DNA of 64,000 nt from Stieleria maiorica (GTDB taxonomy: Bacteria > Planctomycetota > Planctomycetia > Pirellulales > Pirellulaceae): positions 5,392,402 to 5,456,401 of the forward strand of contig NZ_CP036264.1 in the NCBI RefSeq assembly GCF_008035925.1. The letters run 5' to 3'. Made by a program: the position numbers and the translations under genes. A model generated the notes under the pieces. The model did no database searches. It was not told the origin of the DNA and saw nothing but the letters and a program-made list of their open reading frames with translations. Positions 2,838-19,675 of this stretch are shown here, in pieces; the stretch's first letter is position 1, and every line of letters starts with the position of its first letter.

Positions 2838-2880
2838 ACCCGCGCCCATAGCTCAGCTGGATAGAGCATCGGACTTCTAA
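2838..2880 (+). repeat. Left attachment site (tRNA-Arg 5' half)
   Basis: This 43-bp sequence is identical to 19633-19675. It starts four bases before the tRNA and ends at the last base of the anticodon loop, after which the two sites diverge. It retains the 5' half of the original tRNA gene (2842-2880) with its native upstream sequence, so a truncated tRNA transcript could still be made. The anticodon stem-loop is the likely recombinase core. Confidence 0.9.
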
Positions 2881-3185
2881 GGCTTTCGGGTGAACCGCGA
2901 AAAAATCAGTTTTCACCGTGTTTTACGCGGTAAATCGAGATTCTCTAACCAGCGGCAAGCAGTCAAAAACAGCGGTTTTCAGCCCTTGCGGGTATACCGG
3001 GTATACCGAAAAAAACGGCAGCCAGGATCGCTCCCAACCGTTCACATTGATGGTCTCGGCGTTAGGCACTGGTCTTAAAAATGAGGCAGGTTCGTGGAAA
3101 CACGCTAATCGCTGTGTTGTTTTTAGTAAAAAGTTTGTCTCATTTGGCGGCGAACCCTTCTGCCCCGCAAAATCACTAGTCAGGT
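2881..3185. other. Left arm of the element, non-coding
   Basis: No supported gene lies here. The stretch is relatively AT-rich and holds the paired GGTATACC motifs at 2991-3007. It should contain the promoter for the gene at 3186. The short frames in it are not convincing. Confidence 0.5.
2991..3007. promoter_or_regulatory. Paired GGTATACC motifs, left end
   Basis: GGTATACCGGGTATACC holds two copies of the perfect palindrome GGTATACC spaced 9 bp apart. The same 17-mer occurs at 19448-19464, and two further copies lie at 19599-19619. Their presence only near the two ends suggests arm-type binding sites for the recombinase or its directionality factor. Confidence 0.6.
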
Positions 3186-4106
3186 ATGAACAAAAAACAG
3201 AATTCGCCGGCGACTGTGACAATCCAGGATCTCGAAGATTTCGCAACGTCGTCTTCTGACTTCGCGTTCGAAATGCAGGTCAGGAAGCTAATGCAAGTCA
3301 GACAAAAATTTCCGCGGCATGGAGGAACGTACCGCGACCCCCACACCGACCTTCCACGTCAATTTGACTTACAGTCCGAACATGTCGTGTCCAATGACTT
3401 CCATTGGTCGCGTTTTCTTCATGCCGTCGAATGCAAGAACCTGACTGAATGCGGACCAATTTTGATCTCTCGTTCAAAATGCACGCGGCAAGAGTCTGGG
3501 CATTGGTTTTTGCATACAAAATTTCCCAAATCACCACAATGGACTCGCGGGCCTGAACGTCAATACTGCCTCGCTTCCGATGAGCATCTGTTTACGGCCA
3601 AGTTTGGAGGCTTGTACTCTCGCTACCGCGAGGGGGAGATGGTCGGAAAGTCGATTGACCACATTGTAAATAGTGGCAGCAGGATCAAAGGAGGAGACAA
3701 AGACATTTACAGTAGGTGGTCGCAGGCAGTGGCATCCGCAACATCACTGATTGATGTTGCAAGAGAGGTGTTGCCCCTCAACAAACAGGCGTTCATGCGA
3801 ACTGCGATCGTACCCGTTTTGGTTGTTCCCAACGACCGACTATTCGTGGTTGACTACGACGAAGAAGGCAGAAAAACGGGGCCTGTTCGCGCGGTCAGCT
3901 GGACGCCTTTCTACATTGACTATCACCCGCCAAATCTCCCAAAGAGCATCGAAAACTTCCGTTTCAGTTTCCTTGAAATCATCACAGTAGACGGTCTGGC
4001 GGAAGTGATGCATGCCCTGAATACGGGAGCATTTCCAGGCTTCGACGTTCTTTTAGACAGTGAAGTTTGCGACGACGAAATGAGGCTGCAATGTGAGAAC
4101 TGGTGA
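3186..4106 (+). CDS. PD-(D/E)XK nuclease-like cargo protein
   Basis: A 306-residue protein. The N-terminal 90 residues resemble a restriction-endonuclease-like core: a helix with FEMQV (E29), then D61 in the segment RQFDLQ, then VECKN with E82 and K84, matching D-x20-E-x-K. The rest, with a cysteine- and aromatic-rich middle, is unfamiliar. I see no membrane segment or signal. It is one of only two plus-strand genes in the element, sits at the left end away from the operon, and looks more AT-rich than its neighbours. That is the usual setting of a separately acquired cargo gene, often anti-phage or anti-plasmid defence. The nuclease assignment rests on motif order only. It could instead be an orphan restriction enzyme. 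Confidence 0.65.
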   Translation: MNKKQNSPATVTIQDLEDFATSSSDFAFEMQVRKLMQVRQKFPRHGGTYRDPHTDLPRQFDLQSEHVVSNDFHWSRFLHAVECKNLTECGPILISRSKCTRQESGHWFLHTKFPKSPQWTRGPERQYCLASDEHLFTAKFGGLYSRYREGEMVGKSIDHIVNSGSRIKGGDKDIYSRWSQAVASATSLIDVAREVLPLNKQAFMRTAIVPVLVVPNDRLFVVDYDEEGRKTGPVRAVSWTPFYIDYHPPNLPKSIENFRFSFLEIITVDGLAEVMHALNTGAFPGFDVLLDSEVCDDEMRLQCENW

Positions 4107-4224
4107 CGCCACACGCAGTTCTTTGGACCATCTTGGGTGACACGTCCAGCGTCCCAGCGGCAAAATCATTCGGTCAATTCCAGAACGGACGCCCGGCACT
4201 GCGGGCAATCCTCAAATCATGAGT

Positions 4225-4240
4225 GCCGGCAATTGCCGGC
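4225..4240. terminator. Perfect 16-bp palindrome between convergent genes
   Basis: GCCGGCAATTGCCGGC lies between the convergent genes 3186-4106 and 4253-4474. It could end transcription on both strands, though no T-tract follows. It might instead be a protein-binding site. Confidence 0.4.
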
Positions 4241-4252
4241 GGTCGCGGTCAA

Positions 4253-4474
4253 TTAGCCCGCCATCGCTTCCAATTGCTCCGGCCAGATCCGCTCGGGCAC
4301 GATCGCCCAATTCCGCCACGTCGGGCCGTCTGCAATCTCGCTGTGCCGCTCCCGTTCGTCGGGGCTGATCTCGGGCGACGATTGGAGCAAAGCGACTAGG
4401 ACGCTCACGACGGCGTTCTCCCGCTGGGTGCTCGCCTGGACCCGGTAGCCCGATGATGTCTTGGTGATTTTCAT
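4253..4474 (-). CDS. Small hypothetical protein
   Basis: A 73-residue soluble protein starting MKITKTSSGYRV, with a tryptophan-rich end (PTWRNWAIVPERIWPEQ). I recognise no domain. It is the last gene of the element's minus-strand series before the cargo gene. The start at 4474 is preceded by an AAGGCG segment, a weak ribosome site. It follows the 140-residue gene after 126 bp. Confidence 0.5.
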   Translation of the reverse strand: MKITKTSSGYRVQASTQRENAVVSVLVALLQSSPEISPDERERHSEIADGPTWRNWAIVPERIWPEQLEAMAG

Positions 4475-4600
4475 TGATTCGCCTTTTGATCGATTTTGTA
4501 TTGCATGCGATACATCAGAAAACCGGCAGCCGGCCGCATCGCGGCAACGATGCGACCAGACCGCCAGCGGGTGCCACTGTTCGCAGCAGCGGCGATTTCA

Positions 4601-5023
4601 TCACGCCAGCACGGCGCCACGGTCCATTGCCAACCAGACCATCAGATCCCGGCATCCGGCGATAACGTCGCGCACCGATGCCTCTGGGGCCGTCAGGCTT
4701 CGCAGACGGGTCAGCGTCGGCTTGTCGATCGCTTTCCGGTTGAACAGCTTTAGCGGGATCTCAGCGGCCTCGGGGCAGGTGTGGGGCTTTCCGCTGGTTC
4801 GTGCCCATGACAAGCGGAGTAAACTTGCCAGCAACGCTTGGGCCAGTGGGCGGGCATCGATCGGTTGCAGGCTTTCGAGCACCCCGACAACGGCGTCAAG
4901 GTGCTGCAATCGATCCATCAGCGTCATGGGTGCCAGCGTCGGAGCGGTCGCCGCTTTGGCTTCCTGATAGCGTTGTTGACGTTGCAGTCGCAGGGCGGTC
5001 AGGGAATGAAGTTGGGTAGTCAT
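4601..5023 (-). CDS. Hypothetical helical protein
   Basis: A 140-residue protein, mostly predicted helix and rich in Leu, Ala and Arg (RLQRQQRYQEAK near the N-terminus). There is no signal peptide or membrane segment, and I recognise no family. AAAGG lies shortly before ATG 5023. It sits between the HTH gene at 5078 and the small gene at 4253 on the same strand, so is probably cotranscribed with them. Confidence 0.5.
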   Translation of the reverse strand: MTTQLHSLTALRLQRQQRYQEAKAATAPTLAPMTLMDRLQHLDAVVGVLESLQPIDARPLAQALLASLLRLSWARTSGKPHTCPEAAEIPLKLFNRKAIDKPTLTRLRSLTAPEASVRDVIAGCRDLMVWLAMDRGAVLA

Positions 5024-5077
5024 GTTTCGGCCTTTGAATGTTTTGGATTTGTTTGGGACAAGATGCCGGCGGAGTGC

Positions 5078-5650
5078 TCAGCCGGCGACAGCAAGACGTC
5101 GCCGTTGACGTCGGGCATGACGTACCGCTCGAGTGCGGAAACGCTCTAAGATCCGGTCGGCCGGCTCCATCCCGCCGGTAGCCGCTGTGCCGGCGATGAA
5201 GTAGCCACGCTGGCCACGTTGCTCGATCACTCCCGCGGTCACAAGTTCATCAAGGTGCCGATCAATCGCCGGTTCATGCCAAGACACGTTGGCGAGTAGG
5301 TCTTGCTTCGTCGTTCCCGGTCGCATGGCGATGGTGTCGACAATCCGCCGGCATCGTCGTCGGTCGTCGTCACTCGGGGCGTGACGCTTCGCCAGGATTG
5401 CTTTGCATCGATCGGCAATCTGTTGTGGCGTCGGATCGGTGAACGGGACGCCAATGTTGATCTCGACAGGGGGCAGATACCGAGAGGGGCTTTCGCGGGC
5501 GATGACGGCCACGTCTGATTCACGGATCACGGGATAGCGAAAGCCGGGAACGGTGTGGCGGGTGATGACGCCACGGTCGGCCAACTTGCGGACGTGATCG
5601 GCATGAACGCCAGCACGACGGGCAGCCTCGGACATAGAAACGAAAGTCAT
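5078..5650 (-). CDS. MerR/excisionase-like DNA-binding protein with winged-helix C-terminus
   Basis: The start is placed at ATG 5650, because AAGGAGAG lies 8 bases before it; the longer frame from 5725 would translate a structured RNA region. The 190-residue product begins with a MerR-type helix-turn-helix (MSEAARRAGVHADHVRKLAD, about residues 6-25). It then has a second segment like a winged helix (KQDLLANVSWHEPAIDRHL, about 115-155) and a very basic tail (RHARRQRRR). It is probably a transcriptional regulator or accessory recombination protein of the element. Directly upstream is a large hairpin cluster (5665-5803) that would form its 5' leader. Confidence 0.65.
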   Translation of the reverse strand: MTFVSMSEAARRAGVHADHVRKLADRGVITRHTVPGFRYPVIRESDVAVIARESPSRYLPPVEINIGVPFTDPTPQQIADRCKAILAKRHAPSDDDRRRCRRIVDTIAMRPGTTKQDLLANVSWHEPAIDRHLDELVTAGVIEQRGQRGYFIAGTAATGGMEPADRILERFRTRAVRHARRQRRRLAVAG

Positions 5651-5664
5651 AATTGACTCTCCTT

Positions 5665-5803
5665 GCGGACAAGTGATGTCCGCGCACGACGACGCCTCAG
5701 ATCCTGGTTCAAACCGGGCTATCACCCCCGGTCGGGTCCGTCGCTATCTGGCCTGTGCCAGGTCATAGCTTGGGAGTGCTCCCCCAAAATCTGAGGCGTC
5801 GTC
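5665..5803. other. Multi-branched inverted-repeat structure between divergent genes
   Basis: A perfect 15-bp inverted repeat (GACGACGCCTCAGAT at 5688-5702, its complement at 5789-5803) encloses four smaller hairpins: 5703-5718 (CCTGG/CCGGG), 5724-5737 (ACCC/GGGT, weak), 5743-5769 (GCTAT and CTGGC against GCCAG and ATAGC) and 5770-5787 (TTGGG/CCCAA). A further perfect 6-bp stem (GCGGAC/GTCCGC, 5665-5683) abuts the ribosome site of the 5650 gene. It may be a structured 5' leader of that gene, a replication or transfer origin, or an unrecognised RNA. Confidence 0.55.
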
Positions 5804-5931
5804 ATTTCTCAATTGTTTTCAGAAAGGTGATAGTTTTGCTTCGTCGCCGCTGCCATTCACAAGACAGGGCCAAGTCGAATCGGTTTGAAGTCCGATCCAA
5901 CAGCACCGAAAAGCCTACCCCAACCCCCGCG

Positions 5932-5947
5932 TCAATGTCAACATTGA
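5932..5947. promoter_or_regulatory. Operator-like inverted repeat upstream of the nuclease gene
   Basis: TCAATGT and ACATTGA form perfect 7-bp arms with a 2-bp spacer, 67 bp before the ATG at 6014. The size and position suit a dimeric repressor operator. The binding protein is unknown; the divergent MerR-like regulator is a candidate. The rest of 5804-6013 shows no gene. Confidence 0.45.
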
Positions 5948-6013
5948 ATCGACTTTCCCCGCTCCGGCGGTAGAATCGGTCATCACCATGCCAGCAACAT
6001 CAGGGGCACCGCT

Positions 6014-6652
6014 ATGCGTTCCATCGTCACGTTTTTCGCCATCGCCGTCATCGGGTGCAGCCCGTCAGATCCACCGCCAACGTCCACAGCTACGGCGTCG
6101 GTGTCCGTGGAACAAACGGTCGGGAATGTGGCGGTCCAATCGCAGTCCCGCGGCAGCGTCCAGGTTTCCGCCGGTTCGGCCGATGTGTCGATCGATGTCG
6201 ACGGTGTGACCATCCGCAAGTTCTCCGGCCGCGTCGTCGGCGTGACCGATGGCGATACGCTCGACGTCCTACGCAGCGACAACAGCACGGTCAGGGTGCG
6301 ATTCAACGGCGTCGACGCCCCAGAACGCGGGCAGCCGTTCGGAGACAACGCCAAACGCTATGTGTCGGATACGTTCCACCGCTCGCCAGACGTGACGATC
6401 ATCGACTTGGGCCAGGATCGCTACGGTCGGACGATCGGCGAAGTGATCGCCGGCGGTCGTCGCCTCGGTGTCGATCTTGTCGCCGCGGGGCTTGCTTGGC
6501 ATTACGTCAAGTATTCGCCCGACGATACTGAACTGGCCGACGCGGAACGGACAGCACGGGAAGCGAAACGGGGCTTGTGGTCCGATCCCCGGCACGTCGC
6601 CCCGTGGGAGTGGCGGAAACTGTCCAAGGATGAACGGGATCAGTTGCGTTAA
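6014..6652 (+). CDS. Thermonuclease (staphylococcal nuclease) family lipoprotein
   Basis: A 212-residue protein. A lipoprotein signal ends in IAVIGC (Cys15), so the product should be anchored outside the inner membrane. The catalytic fold spans about residues 70-195. Residues equivalent to staphylococcal nuclease are present: DGDT with D81 and T82, R96 in VRVRFNGVDAPE, D101, E104, and R139 in DRYGRT. It should cleave DNA or RNA with calcium. AGGGG precedes ATG 6014. It is divergent from the operon to its left and its 3' end overlaps the convergent gene at 6649 by four bases. A surface nuclease on a mobile element could destroy incoming DNA, scavenge nucleotides or limit superinfection; which is unknown. 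Confidence 0.88.
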   Translation: MRSIVTFFAIAVIGCSPSDPPPTSTATASVSVEQTVGNVAVQSQSRGSVQVSAGSADVSIDVDGVTIRKFSGRVVGVTDGDTLDVLRSDNSTVRVRFNGVDAPERGQPFGDNAKRYVSDTFHRSPDVTIIDLGQDRYGRTIGEVIAGGRRLGVDLVAAGLAWHYVKYSPDDTELADAERTAREAKRGLWSDPRHVAPWEWRKLSKDERDQLR

Positions 6653-7080
6653 CTGCCCCCGCAATTCAGCCACGCCGGAACATCACACGCATCGTCATCG
6701 ATCCGCCCCGCCAGTTCGAACACCGCGTCAGCTTCCGATTCGTTGCCTGTGGCGGTCACTTTGAGACGTTGCCAACGCACTTGGCTCCGGCGCGTACACA
6801 CTCGCTCGCCGGCTTGCATCCGTCGCGTTATCGCGGCGATCTCTCGCGGTGTCGGCAGAAACTCAATCGCAGCGCTGCACCCATCATAGTAAAGTGCCGG
6901 CGGTAATCCGATGATTGAACACGCCTCGGCAACATCGACGCCACGTGCGACCAGTGCGGCTACTTCGCCTTGCATCTCCGCCATCGTCACCGATGGGATG
7001 CGATGCTTTAGCCGTATGCGTTCCCTCTGTAGCCAGTCCATGTCCCAACTGTACCGCCGACAGGTCGATGCGGGAAGCAT
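6649..7080 (-). CDS. Hypothetical protein, coupled downstream of tail gene
   Basis: ATG at 7080 overlaps the stop of the previous gene as TGATG, favouring this start over longer or shorter options (GTG-type at 7122, ATG at 7041). The 143-residue product is soluble, with a helical segment VTMAEMQGEVAALVARGVDVAEAC and a short Cys-containing tail. I recognise no family. Its place two genes after the tape measure protein suggests a tail-associated or assembly role, by position only. Confidence 0.5.
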   Translation of the reverse strand: MLPASTCRRYSWDMDWLQRERIRLKHRIPSVTMAEMQGEVAALVARGVDVAEACSIIGLPPALYYDGCSAAIEFLPTPREIAAITRRMQAGERVCTRRSQVRWQRLKVTATGNESEADAVFELAGRIDDDACDVPAWLNCGGS

Positions 7081-7325
7081 CAAACGGCAACCGTGTCGTC
7101 CTGGTCCTCGATCGTAGACCACAACGCCGCCAGTGCCCGCATGTCACGCTGTAGAACGCGAAGCGTCTCAATAACCTCGCCGGTCTTGATGATGAATCGC
7201 ACCCGCTCGGGGCTCATCGGGTACTGCATCGCGTCTTTACGTTGCTGGATGTGGCCTTCAATGATCCTGCCGTACAGGTCGGCGTTTTGTTCCAGTAACT
7301 CCGCTCGGGTCTTGTCATCATCCAT
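7080..7325 (-). CDS. Small hypothetical protein, coupled to tape measure gene
   Basis: An 81-residue charged helical protein (MDDDKTRAELLEQNADLYGR..). ATG 7325 overlaps the tape measure stop as TGATG, and its own stop overlaps the next start in the same way, so the three genes are translationally coupled. GTG 7328 is an alternative start. The small acidic helical product could be a tail chaperone or assembly factor, but I see no defining motif. Confidence 0.55.
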   Translation of the reverse strand: MDDDKTRAELLEQNADLYGRIIEGHIQQRKDAMQYPMSPERVRFIIKTGEVIETLRVLQRDMRALAALWSTIEDQDDTVAV

Positions 7326-9847
7326 CACGCTAACCTCGCTGCAATCGGATCTCGGGTGTTTCGGACGATCTCACCGATACCGGTGGCGATGTCCGAGAGT
7401 GCTTTGTCGCCCTTGGCATCGCGCGGCGTCTTGGCCCCTGGGTCGCCGGATGCCCCAAACTGGAACAGCGATTGACCGGCAAACGCATCGGCGATGCCGC
7501 GCGACATTGAGCCAGCAAGATCCCCGATCATCGCCCCGCCACTCTGGACAGTGCCGAGCGGATCGTCTGCAAACTTCTGCACGCCATCGACGGTTGCCGC
7601 CCCCAGATCCGAAAGCCCGAAACCGGGACCGCCACCGCCCTTTTGCTTGATGCTGGCATCGATCGATTGCAGTAGGCCGACTTGCTTTTCAGATGCCTTG
7701 GCCGTTCGGTCCATGGGTCCGCTCGATCCCATGCCGAGCAACAGTGAACCCATCGCCGAGAACGTTGCTGGGCCGCCGGTCGTGTCCCCGGCCGATGATG
7801 TGCCGCCAAGTGCCGCAGCAGCCCTCCCGCTGGCGTCGGTGGCGTTCTTGGTCGCCTCGGTCGCGACCATCTTTTTCAATCCGTCCAGCAGTGACCCCAC
7901 CCCCTCGCCGGCATCTCGCAACATGCCCTTGCCGATCTCCTTGCTGGCCTGGGTGTTGACGTTGGCACGCATCGCGTCAAGTCGCTGTTGACGGTCGGAT
8001 AGTTCCTTCGCTCCGGCTCGGGTGTTCGCTTCGCGGTCGCCCTGCCCCTTGGTCTCAAGTTGCTTCCCGAAATCGATGATGCCAGCGATGCGGGCCTCCA
8101 TCGCTTTTTTAGCGCCGCCAAAATTCGATTCAAACGCGCTGCCTTGTTCGCCAATCGTCGCGACACCCGATAGCTCGCCAACTTTCTTTGTGATCGTATT
8201 GAACACCGCGTCATAGTATTTTTGATATCCTTCCAGCAGCGATCCCAGAAACTCGCCCAACGATTGAAACATCACACCGACTTGCTCGGTCACTCCGGCG
8301 GACACGTTGACGATGAATGTTGAAACGCGGGTCCATGCGTCCCTGATCTCCGATGTCAGGTCCAGCCAAGTCAACTCCATCGCGTTGACTGCCAGATCCC
8401 AAGCCGCGGCATAATCGCCGGCTTCGATCGCAGCCTTGATGCCTTCGACACTCAGGCCGACCGATTCAACCAATGCCTCAAAGCGGCCAGACAGCCAGTC
8501 AATGGCTTTACCGCCCATCTCCGTCTGCGTCAGAATCACATAACCCAAACCACCGATACCGGCCGTGACGAGTGCGACAGGCGACGTCAGCAAGCCTACG
8601 GTGGTCGCCAGTCCGCCGACCGCCATACTCGCCACGCTTGCCGCTGTTCCCGCCGCAAGCAGTCCGCCACCGATGCCGACCAGTGCGGCAGATCCGGCAG
8701 CCAAGGAGATAACAAGGCCCTGATTCTGGTCGATGAACTGGGAGACAGCCGACAGGCCGGTGGTCGCCTGATCGGTGAACCTTTGGAGCGGTTCCTCCAA
8801 TGCATCACCGATCGCCAATTGCACGCCATCAGCGGCCGACATGATCTTTCGGAAACTGCCCCCGATGCCGGCGTCCATTTCCTTTGCCGCTTTGCTCGCC
8901 GCACCGCCGGCACCTTGCAATGCCGACAACAGATTCTTAGTCTCCGCCGCGGCGTTGCCGATCGCACTGGCCCCGGTGATGCCCAACAGGCCGAAAGCCT
9001 CGTTGAACTTGGCCGACCGTGCTGCTGTTCCCAACCCGTTGGTCGCTTGGGCCACTTCGGCCAACGTATCGACCAGTGGGCGAGCGTTCCCGGCTGCATC
9101 GACGAACGACACGCCAAAGATGCCTTTCAATTTCTCCGCTTCGGCACCGGTCAGGGTGAGCAATCGCCGCAGTGCGGTGCCCGCGTTGCTGCCCTGGATG
9201 CCAACGTTGCCGAGCGTCCCTAAGATCGCCGCTGTTTCTTCGATCGACATACCAAAGTCAGCAGCAACCGTGCCGGCGTAGCTCAGCGATTCCGAGAGGG
9301 TTTCGACGCTGTTGAATGACTTGTTCGCTGCAACGGTCAGCACGTCGGCCACACGGGTAGCATCGTTCGCCCCAAGCCCGAACTGTCTGATCGATGCCGC
9401 CATGGTCGACGCGGCCATCGAAGCATCGGTGCCCGTCGCTCTGGCCAAGTCGAGCACCGCCCCGGTCATCGAATCGATTTGCGTAGGATTGAAACCAGCC
9501 CGCCCCAGTTCGGTCATCAGGTTGGCCACGTCGATGGCGGCAAACGATGTGGTCGCCCCCAAGTTCTTGGCCGTGTCGGTTAGCTTGGCCAAGTCGCTTT
9601 GGCTCGCCTGGGCGACAGCTCCGACAGCACGCATCGCGTCGTCAAAATCGGCAAAGCTCTTTACGGCGATTGCCATGGGTGCTGCCGTCGCCGCACCGAT
9701 CCCAGCGGCAATGCGGCCGAACCCCTGCATCTTCCCGCCAAGACGATCTAGGTCGCGCTGCACCATGCGGGCACCGCGTTTCAGGCCGGATGCGTCCAGG
9801 CCAATAATCACACTTCCGCGACCGGCGATAACACTTCGAAAACTCAT
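7325..9847 (-). CDS. Phage tail tape measure protein, TP901 family
   Basis: An 840-residue protein. Residues about 60-330 match the TP901-type tape measure core: ATTSFAAIDVANLMTELGRAG, then a Thr- and Ala-rich helical region with NVGIQGSNAGTALRRLL. Hydrophobic segments near 375-440 and long Ala/Gly helices follow, as usual for these proteins. In phages it sets tail length, and it is threaded through the tail tube and released on infection. No tube, sheath, baseplate, portal or capsid gene accompanies it here, which is unusual. A terminator-like hairpin at 9948-9990 lies upstream, so it may have its own promoter in 9848-9947. It could be a prophage remnant or a factor acting on another phage's tail. 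Confidence 0.85.
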   Translation of the reverse strand: MSFRSVIAGRGSVIIGLDASGLKRGARMVQRDLDRLGGKMQGFGRIAAGIGAATAAPMAIAVKSFADFDDAMRAVGAVAQASQSDLAKLTDTAKNLGATTSFAAIDVANLMTELGRAGFNPTQIDSMTGAVLDLARATGTDASMAASTMAASIRQFGLGANDATRVADVLTVAANKSFNSVETLSESLSYAGTVAADFGMSIEETAAILGTLGNVGIQGSNAGTALRRLLTLTGAEAEKLKGIFGVSFVDAAGNARPLVDTLAEVAQATNGLGTAARSAKFNEAFGLLGITGASAIGNAAAETKNLLSALQGAGGAASKAAKEMDAGIGGSFRKIMSAADGVQLAIGDALEEPLQRFTDQATTGLSAVSQFIDQNQGLVISLAAGSAALVGIGGGLLAAGTAASVASMAVGGLATTVGLLTSPVALVTAGIGGLGYVILTQTEMGGKAIDWLSGRFEALVESVGLSVEGIKAAIEAGDYAAAWDLAVNAMELTWLDLTSEIRDAWTRVSTFIVNVSAGVTEQVGVMFQSLGEFLGSLLEGYQKYYDAVFNTITKKVGELSGVATIGEQGSAFESNFGGAKKAMEARIAGIIDFGKQLETKGQGDREANTRAGAKELSDRQQRLDAMRANVNTQASKEIGKGMLRDAGEGVGSLLDGLKKMVATEATKNATDASGRAAAALGGTSSAGDTTGGPATFSAMGSLLLGMGSSGPMDRTAKASEKQVGLLQSIDASIKQKGGGGPGFGLSDLGAATVDGVQKFADDPLGTVQSGGAMIGDLAGSMSRGIADAFAGQSLFQFGASGDPGAKTPRDAKGDKALSDIATGIGEIVRNTRDPIAARLA

Positions 9848-9947
9848 AGCTCAATCCGTTTGTGATGAACCCGGCAGCGGGCAAACGTCCCACGACAAAA
9901 CGTGCCCGCTGGCCGGGGCACGTCCCCGGCAACGCACCGGGGCAGTT

Positions 9948-9990
9948 TGAAAAATGCTGCACGCTGGGCCGTTCCCTCCCAACGTGCAGC
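9948..9990 (-). terminator. Intrinsic terminator upstream of the tape measure gene
   Basis: On the minus strand, GCTGCACG..TGGG pairs with CCCA..CGTGCAGC (9956-9990) and is followed by ATTTTTC. A second perfect 9-bp stem (ACGACGTAG/CTACGTCGT, 9992-10025) touches the stop of the preceding gene. Together they should stop or attenuate transcription coming from 10025. Confidence 0.65.
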
Positions 9991-10024
9991 GACGACGTAG
10001 TGAAAATTCAAAAAAGCTACGTCG

Positions 10025-11590: not shown

Positions 11591-11593
11591 TCT

Positions 11594-11887: not shown

Positions 11888-11923
11888 TGATTCAATCCGT
11901 TGGTTTGCGTCTCGGTCAGCCGA

Positions 11924-12205: not shown

Positions 12206-12374
12206 AAAAGTTCTGAAGTGGGGAAAGCCAGGCCTCCTCTTTCTTCTCTCCGGAAGAACCTACAACCCGGCAGGGGGGGGCATGGCAGGGTGCCGGGGGT
12301 CGCCTGGGGGCTGTGCGGCCTGCTGACGTCGTGGTGATTCGATCGCCGGCGGTTGCGAGCGGGCGTTGTGTGTG

Positions 12375-12929
12375 TCAGTTCAGCTTGACCGCAACGATTC
12401 GCCGGTCCCGCCGGATGACAGAACAAGAGAAGCACCCATCACCGAAACCGGTCAGCGATACCGCACCGAATGCCACAACGCCTCCAATGCTGGTCCCCAT
12501 CGCAATACAGCATTCATCCAGCAGTTCATCGTTGTCGTTGTCGTAGGTGACTGCATCGAACAGACCGAAACGGCCGGTATCAACTCCGACTTGAAACGGC
12601 ATCAATTCCCATTTGTCAGCGTCGGACGGTTTGAAACTCTCGTGGCAGACCGTCAATGTGTTCTCGTCAAACCCGGCGTCGACCATTGCGGACCACACGC
12701 CTCGGGATACTGCCATCAGTCCGCCACAACTCCCGATGTCGTAACATGGATCGGTGGCAACTAAGACGCCAGTTCGGACGCTGAACATTCCCAGATAGGT
12801 CCGCTCGGGCTTTGCGATTGCTGATTCCATCTCTCGATTCTCCATTGCGGCAGATTGATTGAAGCCCGCACCGCTGCCGCCGGCGGTTTGGGGTTTGGTG
12901 ATTCGATAGGGTGCTGGTCGCTCGGTCAT
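12375..12929 (-). CDS. Hypothetical protein, DUF4241-like
   Basis: ATG 12929 overlaps the ERCC4 gene's stop as ATGA, which fixes the start; the product is 184 residues. It carries LVATDPCYD near the middle and QVGVDTGRFGLFDA further on, a pattern I associate with DUF4241-like phage and bacterial proteins of unknown function. Paired cysteines (ECC, FSCS) occur near the C-terminus. It follows the nuclease gene directly, so may act with the replication module. Confidence 0.5.
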   Translation of the reverse strand: MTERPAPYRITKPQTAGGSGAGFNQSAAMENREMESAIAKPERTYLGMFSVRTGVLVATDPCYDIGSCGGLMAVSRGVWSAMVDAGFDENTLTVCHESFKPSDADKWELMPFQVGVDTGRFGLFDAVTYDNDNDELLDECCIAMGTSIGGVVAFGAVSLTGFGDGCFSCSVIRRDRRIVAVKLN

Positions 12930-13429
12930 TCGGTCGCCTCGGTCACAAGCCCCGCGGTCAACGCTCTCAGTTCGCGGTAGCGATGAACCGCAGCACGTCG
13001 CAGCATTGACGCGACCAGTTGCCCCGCCCGCTTTGGTGTGCCGGCCAGGATGCAGGGCAAACCTTTGACTTGCCAACTGACGAGCGACGCGCCGGCCTGC
13101 TTCGGCGTGATCTTGCTTCGCCAATCGCCCCGCTCGATGTCGGACCAATCGGCCTCCACGACAAGGGCACGCACGGGGTAGGCCCGCAGACGATCAATCT
13201 CCCGTTCGAAACGCTCACGCTCTCGGCCAACGCACGCCAGCAAGTCGGGGAGTGACTTGCGTTCGATGGCGATAACCGATTCCAAGCCCTTCACGCTGTA
13301 GTCGCCGGTCGGGAGGGTCGCCGGCTCGGTTCGCAGACCCGGCAGCACCAACGGCATTTGTTCCCTGGTATCGATGATTGCCGTGATCGCGGACGCGGGC
13401 AGTTCGGCGGGGAGTGGGTGGCGACTCAT
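12926..13429 (-). CDS. ERCC4-type (XPF-like) structure-specific nuclease
   Basis: A 167-residue single-domain protein. The active-site pattern is present: IIDTREQ (D20, E23), LPTGDYSVKG (D43) and IAIERKSLPDLL with E56-R57-K58, followed by a basic helix RERERFEREIDRL. These nucleases cut branched or flap DNA at replication or recombination intermediates. It is coupled by ATGA overlap to the primase-helicase upstream and to the next gene downstream, so it probably processes replicating element DNA. The assignment is strong; the exact substrate is not known. Confidence 0.88.
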   Translation of the reverse strand: MSRHPLPAELPASAITAIIDTREQMPLVLPGLRTEPATLPTGDYSVKGLESVIAIERKSLPDLLACVGRERERFEREIDRLRAYPVRALVVEADWSDIERGDWRSKITPKQAGASLVSWQVKGLPCILAGTPKRAGQLVASMLRRAAVHRYRELRALTAGLVTEATE

Positions 13430-16284
13430 TGGGCCGCCCCCTCACGCATCGGCTTGACGTGACCGCATCCCGGCGTCTGACAATCCCAATTCCGCCATCC
13501 GTCAACCGGTTCTGCCGGCGTCATTGCCCCGCCGCACTTAGGACAAGGCACTTTTCGATGTGGTGGCGATGGTGGCGATGTAGGACATGATTCCGGCCCA
13601 TCTCTATACGCGGGCGTGTGTGTGTCGTGTGCGTGTTGTGTTGCAACACAACACGTCTCGCGTATAGGTGGGGGAAAACCATGTCCACCATGACCCCCAT
13701 GACCACCACTTTCACCCACAACATCGCCGGTTTCGCTTTCTTCAACCTGGGAACCATGACCACCATGACCACCAATTGATGCCGGCTTGGCAAACCACCG
13801 ATTTTGCTTGGCGTGTCCCTGCTCCTGGGCGATTCGATACCCGTTGCACACTCGGCCGCGATACTTCCGCATCGCGTAGCCCAACCGCGAAACGTCCGGC
13901 CGGCCGCCCTTCATGCCCACTTCCGCGACCACTTCACGCATGGCCGGGAATCGGCCGGCATTCTCGGCATCATTCAACCGGTCGATGATCTCTCGGCACG
14001 TCATCCCGTCGCCGGTGTCATCGATTTCGAGTAGCCCGCCGATCAACCCCGCGACAATCGCCGCTGAATCGTCGTCGGCCTGGGCAGTTTCGATGGTGTC
14101 CATCGGATCGGAACAGCCGGCCCAAACGACAGCACCGCGGATGACGTCAGACCACGTTTCGAAAGATCCGAATTGCCCGCCATCTTGCTTGGGGCATCCC
14201 GCGACGAAGTAGGCCCGCAGGATGGTCAGGGCAGCCGTCACAAGCTCGCCACGGTGCTCCCGCGTCCATCCGAGTAGATCGTTGTGCCGGAAGTCTGTAC
14301 GCAGTTCTGGGCGTTCCTCGGGACTGTCCAGGCGGATTGGCACAACACGCCGGGCGACGTCAGACCGAAACCGTAGATTGTTCCCGGTTGCAGTCCAGAC
14401 GGCTCGGGCCGGTAGATCGATGGTCCGCGATGAACCTAGCTCCCGATCCTTCCATCGCTCCGCGGTCAGCACGGCATCAAGGGACGCCCCGCCAATCGGT
14501 CGATCGATGTTGTCGAGCAATACCGCCGGCGAACCCTCCATGATGACCGCCGTGATTCGCTTTCGCATTTCGTCGTCGTCGGACGCATACGCAGTTCTGG
14601 CAGCCGAGTGACCGTAGGCGATGATTGACGCAGCATCGACCAGCAGCGACTTGCCAGCCCCGCGAATGTTGGCCGTCACCGCAAACATCGGAACGTGCCC
14701 CGTAACGCATGGCCGACCGATCATAGACAGCAGCATTGCCAACCATGCGGCCTTGTCGGCGGCGTCGGTGAACGGGAAGTCTGCGACCACTTCGAACAGC
14801 TTTTCAGTCGCCGCTACCGCATCCGATTGACTCGGTTCATCGGGGATCGGTTCAAACTTCATCGATGGCCGGAACAGCAGGCCAGACGCATCCCAGCCCG
14901 GCTTTTGCAAGACGCTGCCATCGGGCCGGATTGTCGGGGCCGTGACGATCGCTTCCAAGTGCCGAACATAGCCGCCATAGTCGCCGGCAGTGTGGATGCC
15001 ATCGATCAACCACTTGGGAGGCGGGACAGCTTGCTTTTCAATGTCGCCGTCCTTTTCCTTCTCGACGATCAATTGACACGCATCGGCGATTCGCAGCGAC
15101 AGTTGGGAAGTTGGCAGCACCCGTAGCCGCGGCGTCCCTTGTGCGATCTTGACTTGACCGCCCTTGGCCGTCGCGTCGGCCTTCGATTCGGTCACAACAT
15201 CGACCAGCACGCCGCCACGCTGGTACAGCTTACGGGTTTCGCGTTTCGCCTCGGGCAGCCAGGGGCTTTTCCATCCCAGTTGGCCAAGGTGCCCGATAAC
15301 ACGGTCGACGTGCCACGCATAACGCAGCGTCAAAATTTCCTCGGGCCGGCTATCCTTTCCGAAAATCTCCCCGTCCCTGGGTTGCCACTCGGTCGCCGCT
15401 GCGATCGCATCACGCACCGCCTGTTCTCCGTGTCGTCGAATCACGTCGCGCACGTCTTCGCCCTTCGATGCGACGATCTCGCCAGGCAGTCGAGCGACTT
15501 TGACCGATGCCGCAACCCCGGCCAAGTTGCCGCCGGTTCGTTGTGCCCCGTTCTGCCCTGGTTGGTCCAGATCGGCAACAGTTACGACGTGAACGCCTTG
15601 AAAGAGTCGGGCATACTTCGGTGCCATGAATGACGACGGCAGCCCGCACGCATCGAACCCCAGCCCGACCAGTGCGGCAGCATCCTTGACGCCTTCGACA
15701 AGGTGCCAAGTTTCGCCGGCCTTGGGCAGCCGACCGGGGAGGAATAACCCTTGGCTCCCGTCGCCACGTTTGAAGAATCCTTTATCGGTGGGCGTCAGAT
15801 CAAAGTGGCTATGAATCTCGCCGCTTTCGTTATAGACCGGCACCCGTGCAACCGGCTTTTGATTGCGTCCCCGCTTGTCGACCTTGGGGCCGAATTGGCG
15901 GAACGCATCCAACGGCATTCGCTTTGCTTTGGCTACCGCTTCGATGATGTCAACGATGGGTTTCGCTCCCGTCGCTTCGCTGGCAGATAGCCCAAGGTAG
16001 TCCGCTACTGCTTTCGCTGCCGATCCTTGTGAGTCGTGACCGCCGAACACTCGCACCGTGTCGATAATGTCGCCGGTCCCAGCGTCAAGGCAGTGGTGGC
16101 AGCGAACCTTGCCGTGCTGGTTTACCCCATCATCGCGGCGGTCTGCGTGAAGGCTACCGTGATCGCACAACGGACAGTTGATGTCCTTTTTGGCGGTTCC
16201 AATCTCTCGGTCAATCGATGTCAACGCGACGATGATTTCCACGCAGCGACCGGCCGCGGTTTGCTTGATCGTCTCAAAACTCAC
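13426..16284 (-). CDS. Primase-helicase replication protein
   Basis: A 952-residue fusion. An N-terminal zinc motif (C37, C40, C62, C65 with a histidine) is followed by a Toprim-like region (WHLVEGVKDAAAL, near 195, and VADLDQPGQ, near 237), so it should make primers. A helicase region shows Walker A (NIRGAGKS, K near 543), Walker B (VLLDNID, near 589) and a following WTATGNN sensor, as in superfamily 3 or DnaB-unlike phage helicases. The C-terminus has Gly-His repeats (GGHGGHG, near 835-870) and a second zinc ribbon (CPKC..CQTPGC). It is the probable replication initiator and helicase of the element, coupled to the ERCC4 nuclease. Confidence 0.85.
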   Translation of the reverse strand: MSFETIKQTAAGRCVEIIVALTSIDREIGTAKKDINCPLCDHGSLHADRRDDGVNQHGKVRCHHCLDAGTGDIIDTVRVFGGHDSQGSAAKAVADYLGLSASEATGAKPIVDIIEAVAKAKRMPLDAFRQFGPKVDKRGRNQKPVARVPVYNESGEIHSHFDLTPTDKGFFKRGDGSQGLFLPGRLPKAGETWHLVEGVKDAAALVGLGFDACGLPSSFMAPKYARLFQGVHVVTVADLDQPGQNGAQRTGGNLAGVAASVKVARLPGEIVASKGEDVRDVIRRHGEQAVRDAIAAATEWQPRDGEIFGKDSRPEEILTLRYAWHVDRVIGHLGQLGWKSPWLPEAKRETRKLYQRGGVLVDVVTESKADATAKGGQVKIAQGTPRLRVLPTSQLSLRIADACQLIVEKEKDGDIEKQAVPPPKWLIDGIHTAGDYGGYVRHLEAIVTAPTIRPDGSVLQKPGWDASGLLFRPSMKFEPIPDEPSQSDAVAATEKLFEVVADFPFTDAADKAAWLAMLLSMIGRPCVTGHVPMFAVTANIRGAGKSLLVDAASIIAYGHSAARTAYASDDDEMRKRITAVIMEGSPAVLLDNIDRPIGGASLDAVLTAERWKDRELGSSRTIDLPARAVWTATGNNLRFRSDVARRVVPIRLDSPEERPELRTDFRHNDLLGWTREHRGELVTAALTILRAYFVAGCPKQDGGQFGSFETWSDVIRGAVVWAGCSDPMDTIETAQADDDSAAIVAGLIGGLLEIDDTGDGMTCREIIDRLNDAENAGRFPAMREVVAEVGMKGGRPDVSRLGYAMRKYRGRVCNGYRIAQEQGHAKQNRWFAKPASIGGHGGHGSQVEESETGDVVGESGGHGGHGGHGFPPPIRETCCVATQHAHDTHTPAYRDGPESCPTSPPSPPHRKVPCPKCGGAMTPAEPVDGWRNWDCQTPGCGHVKPMREGAAQ

Positions 16285-16604
16285 GATGCGTCCCTCGCAA
16301 TAGATGGCACGTCCAGTGCAAACTTTGGGTCATGTGGGTCAGTGCCAGCCGGCACGAATCCGATAAACTCGGGATTGTCGACAAGACTCCCGATCGAACA
16401 GTCGTTGGGGTCGATGGGGATGACCGCATCGCCTTGATAGATACGCTCGGTGATGTGTCCGCCGGTGTCCCGGTAGACCTCGTATTCACGCACCGCAGCG
16501 CAGAACATCGCTTTTGACGTGTAGATTTCGTCCAGTGCGTTGCACCGCCAAATTACGTCCCAATCGCCGGCGATGATGTTGATGATCTCGCGTTGAATCT
16601 CCAT
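16281..16604 (-). CDS. Hypothetical acidic protein
   Basis: A 107-residue soluble protein (MEIQREIINIIAGDWDVIWR..). ATG 16604 overlaps the stop of the upstream gene as TGATG; GTG 16607 is an alternative. Its own stop overlaps the start of the primase-helicase gene by four bases, so it is strictly coupled to replication. I recognise no domain. Confidence 0.55.
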   Translation of the reverse strand: MEIQREIINIIAGDWDVIWRCNALDEIYTSKAMFCAAVREYEVYRDTGGHITERIYQGDAVIPIDPNDCSIGSLVDNPEFIGFVPAGTDPHDPKFALDVPSIARDAS

Positions 16605-16978
16605 CACTTAGCCCCTCCCTTGACTTCCGCTTCGGCCATCGATTGCAGGCAGCCGTCAACCGCGTCGACGTATTCCAGTGCCGCGTCAACGTGCCATTTG
16701 ACGACCACCAAAAGATGATCGCGTAGTTCATCTGGCATTTCGGTTTCTAAAACCTGGGTGCAGAGTGACCGCAGTGAAAACAGAAAAGAACCGCGACACT
16801 CAACAACCGGCTTGACCGGCTCGGTCTGTTCCAGTTCGTCCAGCCGATCATCGACGTCATGGTCCAGGCTTGCGAGAAACAACTTGCCATGCGGCTTGGG
16901 GCAACAGTAGCCGCTAGGGGTGCGGATAAAGTCTTCGCCGCAATAGCATTTCTTGGGGATCGGTTTTGGTTCGTTCAT
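16604..16978 (-). CDS. Hypothetical protein with N-terminal cysteine cluster
   Basis: A 124-residue protein. The first 26 residues contain KKCYCGEDF and GYCCPKPHGK, which could bind one zinc ion; the remainder is helical and acidic (HVDAALEYVDAVDGC). I recognise no family. It is followed at once by the coupled gene 16281-16604 and lies three bases after the preceding gene. Confidence 0.55.
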   Translation of the reverse strand: MNEPKPIPKKCYCGEDFIRTPSGYCCPKPHGKLFLASLDHDVDDRLDELEQTEPVKPVVECRGSFLFSLRSLCTQVLETEMPDELRDHLLVVVKWHVDAALEYVDAVDGCLQSMAEAEVKGGAK

Positions 16979-16981
16979 CGT

Positions 16982-17272
16982 TCAGACCCCCAACGCTTCG
17001 CAGATGCGATCAAGGGCAACCCGATAGTGCTCGGTGTCCGCCAATTCCCGCCGGTGACATTCCCAGCCGACCAGACGCGATAGACTCGCCTTGACCAGTG
17101 AATACCGGTCCCAAATGTCACGATCGCCGCGGTAGCTTCGGGCTCGTTGTTCGAGTGCCAATAGCCGCGGCTCGGCCTTGACCATCGCGTCCCAAGTTGC
17201 CGGGATCGGTGCCGGCGGGACGATCGCCCGCTTTGGGAATTGGCTTGAATGATTCAATCCATCGCGTAACAT
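16982..17272 (-). CDS. Hypothetical protein
   Basis: AAAGGAG lies 9 bases before ATG 17272, so this start is chosen over the longer open frame to 17437. The 96-residue product is helical with several Trp and Arg residues (RDIWDRYSLVKASLSRLVGWECHRRELADTEHYR). It has no known domain. It is part of the operon that leads into the replication genes. Confidence 0.6.
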   Translation of the reverse strand: MLRDGLNHSSQFPKRAIVPPAPIPATWDAMVKAEPRLLALEQRARSYRGDRDIWDRYSLVKASLSRLVGWECHRRELADTEHYRVALDRICEALGV

Positions 17273-17402
17273 GGGAGTGACTCCTTTGTGTCGCTGGTCG
17301 CCGTCGCCAAAACTTTGACCAGTTGCCGCCCGCCGAATGTCCGTTTCGGTGTGGCGGTTTTTTTTGGGGCCGCCGGCGCTCCGTTGCCGGTGGCAAGGAT
17401 CG

Positions 17403-17651
17403 CTAGACCCACTGCTTGGGCATGGGGGCGGATGCACGTTTACGCTTCGGCTGGGGTTTGGCCGACTCTTCCCGGTTGGCGATGAATCGACGTAGCGCGT
17501 CGTCGGAGACCAGCCACTTGCGACGTTTGGTTCCCCTGCCCATCGGCGTACCCTGGATCTCGCCTTCGACGATCATCTGCCGCACCGATTCGCGATGCGT
17601 CCGCAAGATCTCCGCCGCTTCGTCCAATGTGTGAAGCTTGATCTCAGACAT
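17403..17651 (-). CDS. Excisionase-like HTH protein
   Basis: An 82-residue basic protein with a MerR/excisionase-family helix-turn-helix (TLDEAAEILRTHRESVRQMI, residues 8-27), a wing (GTPMGRGTKRRKWLVSDDALRRFI) and a Lys/Arg/Pro tail. GGAGAG precedes ATG 17651. Small size, basic charge and proximity to the recombinase suggest an excisionase (directionality factor) or repressor. Immediately upstream lie three 10-bp-phased repeats (17740-17778) that could be its binding site. Confidence 0.75.
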   Translation of the reverse strand: MSEIKLHTLDEAAEILRTHRESVRQMIVEGEIQGTPMGRGTKRRKWLVSDDALRRFIANREESAKPQPKRKRASAPMPKQWV

Positions 17652-17739
17652 AAAAAAACTCTCCGTGTGTTGCGGTTGATTACCGTTGACACACGAAGAG
17701 TAAAGGCGATTTTCAGCAGTTCAATTCAGGTGTAGGCCA

Positions 17740-17778
17740 GATGTCCTACGATGTCCGGCGATGTCCTAATCCGGACAT
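17740..17778. promoter_or_regulatory. Three phased GATGTCC repeats plus inverted copy
   Basis: GATGTCC begins at 17740, 17750 and 17760, exactly one helical turn apart, and an inverted GGACAT lies at 17773-17778. They sit between the HTH gene ending at 17779 and the excisionase-like gene starting at 17651. This suits cooperative binding of a regulator or iterons of a replication origin. Confidence 0.6.
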
Positions 17779-18240
17779 TCAATTGTCTTCCTCCGGGTCT
17801 TCTGCCATGGTCTTTTTGTTCTTCACAGCCCACTGCTTGACGCTTTCGACCGTGCAGGGCGATGACGGGAAACTTTTGTCTTTTCGCCAGCGACCTATCG
17901 TTCTTGTCTCGACACCAAAGCAACGCGCCCACGTCAGATCCTGGAACGTCTTACCCACTGGCGGCGACTCGGGGCCGTCGCTGGATTCTTCTGCAATGCC
18001 ATCCGTTGCCCCGGCTTTTGCCTCGGCTGCGGATGCGGCTTCCCATTCGGCAAGCTCCCAACGCTCCATGTGTCTAAGCTTGTCAACGGAAATACCGGTT
18101 TCGCGCCACAGTTTGATAAGTCGGCGTTTGAAGTCGATCGCTTCGGCCTCCATCTCCCGCAGCTTTCGGTTGTGCTCACGCATCCACTCGTTGGTTTCTT
18201 CGACATCTCGCCAAAATGCGGCTTCTTCTGATTCGTTCAT
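17779..18240 (-). CDS. HTH-containing hypothetical protein next to integrase
   Basis: ATG 18240 overlaps the integrase stop as ATGA, so the product has 153 residues. The N-terminal half is a charged helix (EEAAFWRDVEETNEWMREHNRK). The C-terminal third reads as a helix-turn-helix (LTWARCFGVETRTIGRWRKD, then CTVESVKQWAV). It may regulate the recombinase or act with it. Its stop abuts the phased operator repeats. Confidence 0.6.
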   Translation of the reverse strand: MNESEEAAFWRDVEETNEWMREHNRKLREMEAEAIDFKRRLIKLWRETGISVDKLRHMERWELAEWEAASAAEAKAGATDGIAEESSDGPESPPVGKTFQDLTWARCFGVETRTIGRWRKDKSFPSSPCTVESVKQWAVKNKKTMAEDPEEDN

Positions 18241-19418
18241 TTTGCACCCCGCTTTGCCTTGGTGCCGTTCTTCGTCGGCGTCGGCTTCCCATCTTGGAAC
18301 CACTTACGCATCTGTTGACAGACTTTCTTGACCCGTTCGTCGGGAACGCCCTCCCGGTATTCGCCGGCCATCGTTCCTTCGACGTGACCCATGATGTAAT
18401 CGATCGCCGCCTGATCGGTGCCGCCCTCCGTTTCCAGCGTATGACGTAGTGCGTAGTGCCCAACGGCTTTACGGTAGACGCCGGCGGCCTCAGCGGCCTT
18501 TTTGAACGCTTGCTGAATCGGCGAGGTGTTCTCGCCGTCGACGTACCACGGTTTACGGTGCGTCGTCATGAAAACCAGATCATCCCATTCCGGTTTGCGA
18601 GCTGCCGGTCTGATCTCCATTGCGGCCCTGATCGCCGTCATTGTCTCGGGCCATAACCACGCCGATCGCTCAATGCCAGTTTTCTCTCGCAGCCCCCTCA
18701 GCCAGTGACGCTTGAAGTCGATGTCGGAGACACGCAGTCGACCGCAATCAGCTGGCCCATAGCCGGCGTTGATTCCCAAGTAAATCATTGCTCGCAGCTG
18801 GACAGGTGCCGCATCAATCAGTTTGTGAATCTCCGCCGCGGTGAATCGCTTGGTGTTCTGATTCCGCTTGTGGAGTCGTTGACGCTTCTTTGAGACACGT
18901 TTGAAGTTTGGCCCGGTGTTGATCCGGGTCGGCACTGCTTCGATGTCGTAAGCGAACTTGAAGACGATCGACACGTCCCTGATTCGGGTGTTGATCGTTG
19001 CCGGGGACCAATCCGGGCTGAACTTCGATCGCATGAATTGGAAATCCGCCGGCCCTAGGGTCTCCAACCGCCGCCCCTTGCCGAAGACCGCAGCGATGTA
19101 TTTGCAAACCCGGTGATAGTCCTTCAGAGTCCGCTTGGCCAAGTCGCCCTGATCACACTTGGCTTGCTGGGCGTCCATGAACGTATTGCAGAGCCATCCC
19201 ACGGTTCCGGGGCCGCTGGGCGTCGTCGGTGTCGCTCCGGCCAGGATCGCATCGATTGACGCGCGGTATTTGGCCAGCGCGGCGTCAGGATCGCTCCAAA
19301 CGCCGAAGTAGTAGACTTTGCCCTTGATCTTCTTGGACCATTGACCGCAGGGGTTCGCCGTCAATGGAAAATCAGGATGGGGCTTGCCCGGCCTGGTTGC
19401 GCCTGATTTCACGCTCAT
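18237..19418 (-). CDS. int: Tyrosine recombinase (integrase) of the element
   Basis: ATG 19418 is preceded by GGGAGG at 7 bases, so it is preferred over ATG 19472, whose extra N-terminus would simply translate the GGTATACC repeats. The 393-residue product starts with an arm-binding region (DFPLTANPCGQWSKKIKGKVYYFG), then a core-binding domain, then the catalytic domain: K246 (REKTG), YALRHT with R325, GH with H345, and nucleophile Y354 (AGEYREG). In the usual box I arginine position the sequence is NAGYGPADCGRL, with Gly at 221. It catalyses integration and excision at the tRNA-Arg site. The gene lies at the right end, 215 bp from the tRNA. Confidence 0.93.
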   Translation of the reverse strand: MSVKSGATRPGKPHPDFPLTANPCGQWSKKIKGKVYYFGVWSDPDAALAKYRASIDAILAGATPTTPSGPGTVGWLCNTFMDAQQAKCDQGDLAKRTLKDYHRVCKYIAAVFGKGRRLETLGPADFQFMRSKFSPDWSPATINTRIRDVSIVFKFAYDIEAVPTRINTGPNFKRVSKKRQRLHKRNQNTKRFTAAEIHKLIDAAPVQLRAMIYLGINAGYGPADCGRLRVSDIDFKRHWLRGLREKTGIERSAWLWPETMTAIRAAMEIRPAARKPEWDDLVFMTTHRKPWYVDGENTSPIQQAFKKAAEAAGVYRKAVGHYALRHTLETEGGTDQAAIDYIMGHVEGTMAGEYREGVPDERVKKVCQQMRKWFQDGKPTPTKNGTKAKRGAK

Positions 19419-19447
19419 CGCTGAACCTCCCATCGACGGGAGGTTTC

Positions 19448-19464
19448 GGTATACCGGGTATACC
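19448..19464. promoter_or_regulatory. Paired GGTATACC motifs upstream of integrase
   Basis: This 17-bp sequence is identical to 2991-3007 and lies just upstream of the integrase ribosome site. Binding here could couple site occupancy to integrase expression. Confidence 0.6.
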
Positions 19465-19598
19465 CGTGACATTGCCGGCAGAGTGCCGAACAGATAGACT
19501 TTCGTCTCATCGCTTGAACCTCAATTTCAAGTGGTGATGGGCTTCGCCGGTCCCACAACCGGCGGAGTCCCCTTAATCTAGCAGTTTTCGCCGTCTCG

Positions 19599-19619
19599 GG
19601 TATACCGGTCGGGTATACC
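19599..19619. promoter_or_regulatory. Second GGTATACC pair, next to attR
   Basis: GGTATACC occurs at 19599-19606 and 19612-19619 (13 bp apart), 17 to 38 bp before the tRNA. The TATACC of the second copy also lies where a -10 element for the tRNA could be. Confidence 0.55.
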
Positions 19620-19632
19620 AAGCGAAAAACAC

Positions 19633-19675
19633 ACCCGCGCCCATAGCTCAGCTGGATAGAGCATCGGACTTCTAA
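19633..19675 (+). repeat. Right attachment site (inside tRNA-Arg)
   Basis: This sequence is identical over 43 bp to 2838-2880. The repeat covers the tRNA 5' half, so the element supplies the 5' end and upstream region of the present tRNA gene while the chromosome supplies the 3' half. Confidence 0.9.

Follow-up and report, generated by a model that had tools for sequence, protein, structure and literature searches.

The stretch of DNA analysed here, referred to as the window, comprises 64,000 nucleotides (nt) of Stieleria maiorica (contig NZ_CP036264.1, positions 5,392,402 to 5,456,401) and holds a probable integrative element of 16.8 kb at a tRNA-Arg(TCT) gene. The first-pass annotation of this locus had described two identical 43-bp repeats and an intact tRNA at the right end only. 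Both repeats were recovered exactly as described, at 2838-2880 and 19633-19675 (+ strand, offset 16,795), and each runs from four bases ahead of the tRNA to tRNA position 39, which is the end of the anticodon loop. ARAGORN gave a single tRNA in the window, the tRNA-Arg(TCT) at 19637-19711 (+ strand, anticodon at position 35), in agreement with the annotation. The left repeat copy, attachment site attL, consists of the displaced tRNA 5' half with its four preceding bases and passes into other sequence, with no complete tRNA there; the right copy, attR, is the 5' half supplied by the element. Directly left of the intact tRNA lies a tyrosine integrase gene, int (18237-19418, - strand; PF00589 at 1.2e-12 and 48.4 bits against a Pfam cut-off of 27.1; phrog_1 at 5.5e-26). 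Its frame is open to 19472, and 19418 was preferred as the start because it follows a GGGAGG site and is also where the relatives start. A predicted 31-codon leader frame (19415-19510, - strand) overlaps this start by ATGA, and the same layout, with leader frames of 31-34 codons, was found in all three members of the window clade (the window, L142 and G164, which is Rhodopirellula sp. JC639). An integrase inside the element, an intact tRNA at one end and the cognate fragment in the same orientation at the other end are features of a genomic island, whereas the half restored is the 5' half and not the 3' half of the conventional class. Rfam at gathering scores gave nothing besides the tRNA in 2400-20000, and base composition showed no clear element boundary, except for a lower-GC (guanine plus cytosine) kilobase at 3001-4000.

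The same locus was then compared in related genomes. G197, a member of the same genus without the element, has in this order the left-flank kinase gene (82% identity), the promoter-like block described below, an intact tRNA-Arg(TCT) gene and the right-flank genes, of which the four longest showed 78-88% identity and shorter partial matches 64-75%; the window frame adjoining the tRNA on the right (20370-21776) had no match in G197. This order indicates that the 5' half and the promoter region are native to the left flank, so that the copy now joined to the right half is that of the element. The claim of the first-pass annotation that the element carries the tRNA 5' half together with its promoter region was thus supported by an empty site: the 5' half comes with the left flank and not with the right, and there is no second complete tRNA-Arg(TCT) gene on the left, nor any other complete tRNA in the window. 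According to ARAGORN, Rfam and the empty-site comparison, the gene at 19637-19711 is therefore an intact chimera of an element 5' half and a native 3' half. G179 and G185 also have the left flank, the block and the intact tRNA as in G197, and their right sides were unmatched to the window (the G185 contig is only 8.9 kb). On the other hand, the site was occupied in G164 by a 16,746-bp element between the same flanks, whose integrase is 91% identical to that of the window and whose left-end open reading frames (ORFs) differ, and in G172 by a 54-kb insert. A weak integrase match (26%) was also seen on the 3' side of the tRNA-Arg(TCT) gene of G185 (L079, 2850-3263), which possibly makes this gene a hot spot on either side.

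Both copies of the tRNA 5' half have a promoter-like block ahead of them. The displaced native block (2706-2737, + strand) consists of TTGCCG (2709-2714), 17 nt and TACACT (2732-2737), and matches ACATTGCCGNCNGNGNGCCNNNNNGATANACT; the element block (19469-19500, + strand) consists of TTGCCG (19472-19477), 17 nt and TAGACT (19495-19500), matches the pattern with zero mismatches and is like 2706-2737 at 27 of 34 core positions. The sequence about 130 nt ahead of the left half resembles that about 165 nt ahead of the intact tRNA, with 74% identity over 77 nt ungapped and a local score of 97; about 1000 pairs drawn at random from 21-63 kb of the window scored at most 66. In a smaller control of 300 draws within the first 25 kb, 97 was reached once, perhaps from drawing the pair itself. 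When six native upstream regions were aligned (three displaced, three from intact genes), the 30 nt around GACATTGCCG...GATAAACT, in which the native block of the window lies, were the most conserved, with 73% invariant columns compared to 25% overall.

The block pattern, at no more than two mismatches, had nine matches in 14 genomes of the genus, while a reversed control had none. These nine were six native tRNA-Arg(TCT) upstream sites (genes or displaced halves), the window element, the G127 element and the tRNA-Arg(TCT) gene of G148. The G127 element sits in a tRNA-Arg(CCT) gene whose native upstream region is unlike the arm (score 25), which indicates that the block travels with the element. 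As judged by these alignments, the upstream block of the window element is homologous to the native block, and we infer that the block is a promoter of the tRNA.

A family search with the integrase gave matches in 112 of 199 genomes, and 60 regions fetched from the listed matches down to 208 bits, together with the window and G164, yielded a set of 62 integrases. A complete tRNA was found within 1400 nt of the int start in 50 of them, with its 5' end facing int in 42 and its 3' end in 8; none was found within this distance in the other 12, four of which run off the contig within 500 nt. The other repeat copy was in view for 13 of the 50, confirming the 5' half in 11 and the 3' half in 2. All 11 repeats of the 5' type lie within tRNA positions -5 to 41 (that of L121 covers only 16-38), and both repeats of the 3' type span 32-75. 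The two types share only the anticodon-loop region, and the exchange must therefore occur there. On the integrase tree, whose bootstrap was unsettled, the half label has to change at least five times across the 50 labelled rows, and one trio with strong support contains 3' types at Arg and Lys and a 5' type at Met. Judging from these sequences, this planctomycete clade mostly uses 5' halves and sometimes 3' halves, and close relatives switch between them. Four genomes from a different family within the class were sampled by their top match, and all four matches were of the 5' type (4/4); the same genomes have three further places above 190 bits, besides weaker matches.

Viral contigs gave a similar picture. 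With the single integrase as query, no viral contig was matched, while the integrase alignment found 27, some of which are possibly near-copies of each other (L231, L232). Seven of these had a complete tRNA upstream of int (six 5' type, one 3' type) and six had only a half tRNA beside int (four 5', two 3', at no more than five mismatches); at the sites with only a 5' half, the tRNA match holds up to the anticodon loop and then departs, as expected of the attachment site attP of a free element. Neither was found in 14, seven of which have less than 60 nt upstream and two of which carry a tRNA some 0.9 kb past the far end of int. A scan of genome contigs matched only Rhodopirellula sp. JC639 and one metagenome-assembled genome of the Phycisphaerae. 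By eye, and outside these counts, a tRNA-Arg-like 5' half that departs after the anticodon loop was also seen beside the integrase of L124 (G162:C133), with no complete tRNA within 1400 nt.

The DNA from the int start to the restored tRNA has a recurrent layout. Of the 61 integrases whose start was found by a simple rule, 42 had the hexamer TANANT, which looks like a -10 box antisense to the int start, across from their first ten codons, compared with 10 of 620 later windows on either strand. It is followed by a hairpin over the Shine-Dalgarno site and then by a terminator-like hairpin reading away from int. The leader folded with a z score below -2 relative to 60 shuffles in 46 of 59 cases, and in 39 of 44 among those with the hexamer, which include three window-clade members added by hand. 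In the window, two hairpins lie at 19507-19570 (+ strand), and the leader frame's Shine-Dalgarno site is complementary to the loop of the first; the folds gave z scores of -5.98 (19507-19636) and -5.5, and 19545-19640 alone gave -1.61. The native leader folds well too (z -4.55). In the window clade, the block is placed ahead of the leader frame. The hairpin segment of the window probably gives an antisense RNA against int and may also serve as the 5' leader of the tRNA transcript; the antisense RNA would restrain translation of the integrase. Paired repeats were found that are probable integrase arm sites: a GGGTATACC direct pair beside the core at 19598-19619, read from the sequence, with similar pairs seen by eye in relatives; a GGTATACC/GGGTATACC pair beside int at 19448-19464, from an inverted-repeat comparison; and a left-end tandem GGGTATACC pair at 2990-3007, an inverted copy of 19444-19466 (96% complementary). 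TAGACT had also been considered as a tRNA promoter in distant elements; this was dropped, as the box there falls inside int codons and is present in 3'-type elements too.

Two loci appear to record what follows integration. In G148 (L075, G148:C31), the 175 nt ahead of the tRNA-Arg(TCT) gene at position 9691 match three element arms over their full length, with z scores of 15.3-20.6 in one direction and 17.5-22.6 in the other, compared with 0.7-6.6 for native regions. No relative of the 62 integrases, or of the ORFs of at least 90 amino acids (aa) of three elements (window, G164, G127), was found in the 19.9 kb around this tRNA. In the most economical reading, this is an apparent case of promoter donation: the element was lost and left its arm, including the promoter block, behind. 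The 3' half of the tRNA was observed again (five mismatches) at 13022 in G148, 3.3 kb downstream. In L118_G104 (G104:C40, near 473), the region ahead of a displaced tRNA-Leu half is itself element-like (score 120, compared with a random maximum of 76), as it would be after serial integration.

Taken together, these results point, with a probability that we put at about 0.7, to a phage-related integrative element whose integrase recombined a 5'-half attP with the anticodon-loop region of the host gene, and whose block belongs to int control and gives a transcript that runs into the tRNA. In the mechanism we propose, recombination by the tyrosine integrase between an attP carrying the tRNA-Arg 5' half and the anticodon-loop region would have left the native promoter block and 5' half cut off at the left end, while the element 5' half, preceded by about 170 bp of element sequence, would have become fused to the native 3' half. 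The DNA ahead of the restored tRNA would be the int control region, with the promoter-like block, the anti-Shine-Dalgarno hairpin, the terminator-like hairpin and the paired arm sites. The block may first have evolved for the antisense RNA against int; in the window group the antisense transcript would run on into the tRNA, and the element would bring a working promoter. After decay of an element, the block would stay as the host tRNA promoter. At somewhat below even odds, we further consider that such elements are vehicles of tRNA promoter replacement, in which the antisense promoter drives the host tRNA and persists after loss, and that the 'native' tRNA-Arg(TCT) promoter of the genus is a fossil of an earlier element.

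Several observations weigh against this interpretation. Sigma-70 consensus scans gave no promoter at either the native or the element site, and the promoter reading therefore rests on conservation. Native and element upstream regions were alike in only 2 of 10 elements compared (window and L118_G104), and even for the sister element in G164 this comparison scored 29, within the random range, with 23 of 34 core positions. Part of the TANANT signal could reflect a recurrent Ser-Thr/Ser-Asn peptide at the N-terminus of the integrase, although SV, SL, NV, IV, FN and FT also occur. Another, divergent tRNA-Arg(TCT) gene of the same genome lies 3.7 Mb away among 34 clustered tRNAs at about 9.135-9.142 Mb (L182, G000:C1:9135000-9143500); it was the one other Arg(TCT) when tRNAs were named by ARAGORN at 69 places of the genome. 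The first-pass annotation had held that the tRNA now depends on element-derived upstream sequence. The element origin of the upstream DNA stood, while the dependence need not be absolute given the divergent gene, and the transcribing promoter is identified by inference; the chimeric gene is the only native-type copy and perhaps not the only Arg(TCT) tRNA made. Finally, many relatives have a good run of T's after the hairpin ahead of the tRNA, which should stop the antisense transcript, and read-through cannot therefore be the general answer. By a loose count of at least four T's anywhere beyond nt 40, such a run occurred in 35 of 59, with the window and L142 included.

These T-run hairpins between block and tRNA lend some weight to the reading that the block only controls the integrase, the tRNA being transcribed from a nearer promoter or by read-through from elsewhere. 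The same hairpins and the antisense -10 are moreover present in the 3'-type elements L084 and L086, where the tRNA is read the other way. We nevertheless regard this reading as rather unlikely: the block precedes uninterrupted tRNA genes in G197, G185 and G179, it stood out as the most conserved part of an alignment of these with the three displaced native ones, and only a weak T-run follows the second hairpin in the window, G164 and L142.

We consider it similarly doubtful that the same integration took place with a block which the element had captured from a host tRNA-Arg(TCT) gene rather than donated to it. The antisense -10 at the int start and the anti-Shine-Dalgarno hairpin occur across the integrase clade at many tRNAs, which indicates that the layout is old in the elements, and this wide spread tends to favour donation over capture in the genus group of the window. 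Capture would account for the block at the native locus in 6 of 14 genus genomes and for the fact that, within the genus, to which the pattern search was confined, element copies were seen only in the window, the G127 element and G148. The six native copies also agree with each other at 27-34 of 34 core positions, compared with 21-30 of 34 with the element copies, as in vertical descent. However, G148 has a complete element arm ahead of its tRNA, with no int found. Moreover, the region upstream of G127's own tRNA-Arg(TCT) gene shares only 19-23 of 34 positions with the six natives; its closest counterpart is the G164 element (25 of 34), and it retains a CAT and a hairpin resembling those of an element int start. 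That there was no integration at all, and that the left half is a relic of tandem duplication or rearrangement, is very improbable: nothing was found in its favour, and against it stand the empty site in G197, the element at the same place in G164, the boundary integrase, the excisionase-type gene close by and the recurrence of this layout at many tRNAs.

Canonical tyrosine recombinases have the active-site residues Arg I, Lys, His/Lys, Arg, His/Trp and Tyr, and the catalytic Arg I is generally regarded as necessary. When the residue columns were read from the 62 integrases aligned with solved recombinases (Arg I via XerA), the Arg I column was Gly in 61 and Glu in 1, and the second-His column was Tyr in 58, with two gaps, one Asn and one Leu. 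The catalytic Lys was present in all 62, while the Arg, His and nucleophile Tyr were present in 59 each, with three gaps. In the window integrase, the residues are G239, R262, K264 and Y340, and R262 and K264 were found in 62 of 62. The invariant Arg two residues ahead of the catalytic Lys might compensate for the missing Arg I. The exact attachment-site repeats around 13 members suggest that the integrases of the clade work, or did recently.

Several other genes of the element were recognised. A phage tail tape measure protein (7325-9847, - strand) matched PF10145 at 3.5e-44, TIGR01760 at 7.2e-63 and PHROG tail families, and a primase/polymerase-like protein of 952 aa (13426-16284, - strand) matched PHROG 19930 at 8.9e-35 and 849 at 2.6e-8, with nothing in Pfam at 0.01. 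Two nucleases, one ERCC4 (12926-13429) and one staphylococcal-type (6014-6652), were also found, together with an excisionase-type helix-turn-helix (HTH) protein (17403-17651, - strand; HTH_17 at 4.1e-9, TIGR01764 at 5e-7, phrog_66 at 7.9e-7). None of the ORFs scanned, 20 each in Pfam and PHROGs, was recognised as a capsid, portal or large terminase, and small-terminase PHROG matches were weak (0.0003 and 0.0065) and fell on small HTH proteins. A tape measure gene where no capsid, portal or large terminase was found marks the element as phage-related, and it is perhaps a satellite or a reduced prophage. At the left end, a 306-aa frame without family match (3186-4106) reads away from the stranded host promoter. 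The idea that left-end element genes are generally driven by this promoter was considered and dropped, since the first chosen ORF reads rightward in only 5 of 11 elements.

These results mean that the clade often replaces the promoter side of a tRNA gene, and one relative seems to show such a replacement outliving the element. They make it possible to test how transcription of an essential gene can pass to mobile DNA, and why a single lineage of integrases is able to alternate between 5' and 3' halves. Among the best literature matches, judged by title and opening abstract, there was nothing on integrase clades specialised in 5' halves, on integrase antisense RNAs of such a layout or on tyrosine integrases without Arg I, which is weak evidence of absence. 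Short structured antisense RNAs that contact their target through loops are known from plasmids and phages, as in CopA and RNAI. In the window, the target would be the integrase leader, with a promoter inside or beside the first int codons.

In a review, bacterial tRNA genes are said to keep their original promoter after integration with very few exceptions, and the use of tRNA 5' halves, typical of pTN3-like archaeal integrases, is said to be seldom met in bacteria (PMC8371274). With the pTN3-like elements, the window element shares a bacterial attachment site, attB, in the tRNA 5' half and a restored tRNA parted from its original promoter (PMC8371274, PMC5495485). In pTN3, however, integration disrupts int and expression of the tRNA is attributed to the int promoter (PMC8371274, PMC5495485), whereas the window int is intact (18237-19418, frame to 19472), its attachment core lies outside the gene (19633-19675) and not inside it as in such suicidal integrases, and the block reads away from it. 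The tRNA-dependent lysogeny of mycobacteriophages likewise requires that the element restores the tRNA function it breaks (PMC10865867). There, a complete phage tRNA gene is the substitute (PMC10865867), whereas in the window a half gene is restored in place, and the window holds no complete replacement tRNA and no other tRNA. Another parallel is given by the Islander survey, which counts 3919 mapped islands, 3760 with 3' fragments and 159 with 5' fragments (PMC4383910). The 5'-fragment islands are described there, like the window, with an intact tRNA gene and a displaced 5' fragment in the same orientation and an integrase inside (PMC4383910). The window clade differs from the islands as a group in that it mostly uses 5' halves at many tRNAs and switches halves, and in that the window block is homologous to the native one. 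Integration of the 5'-fragment kind is thus known but rare, and what is added here is a clade with a 5' preference, the switching of halves, a homologous promoter block and the G148 relic.

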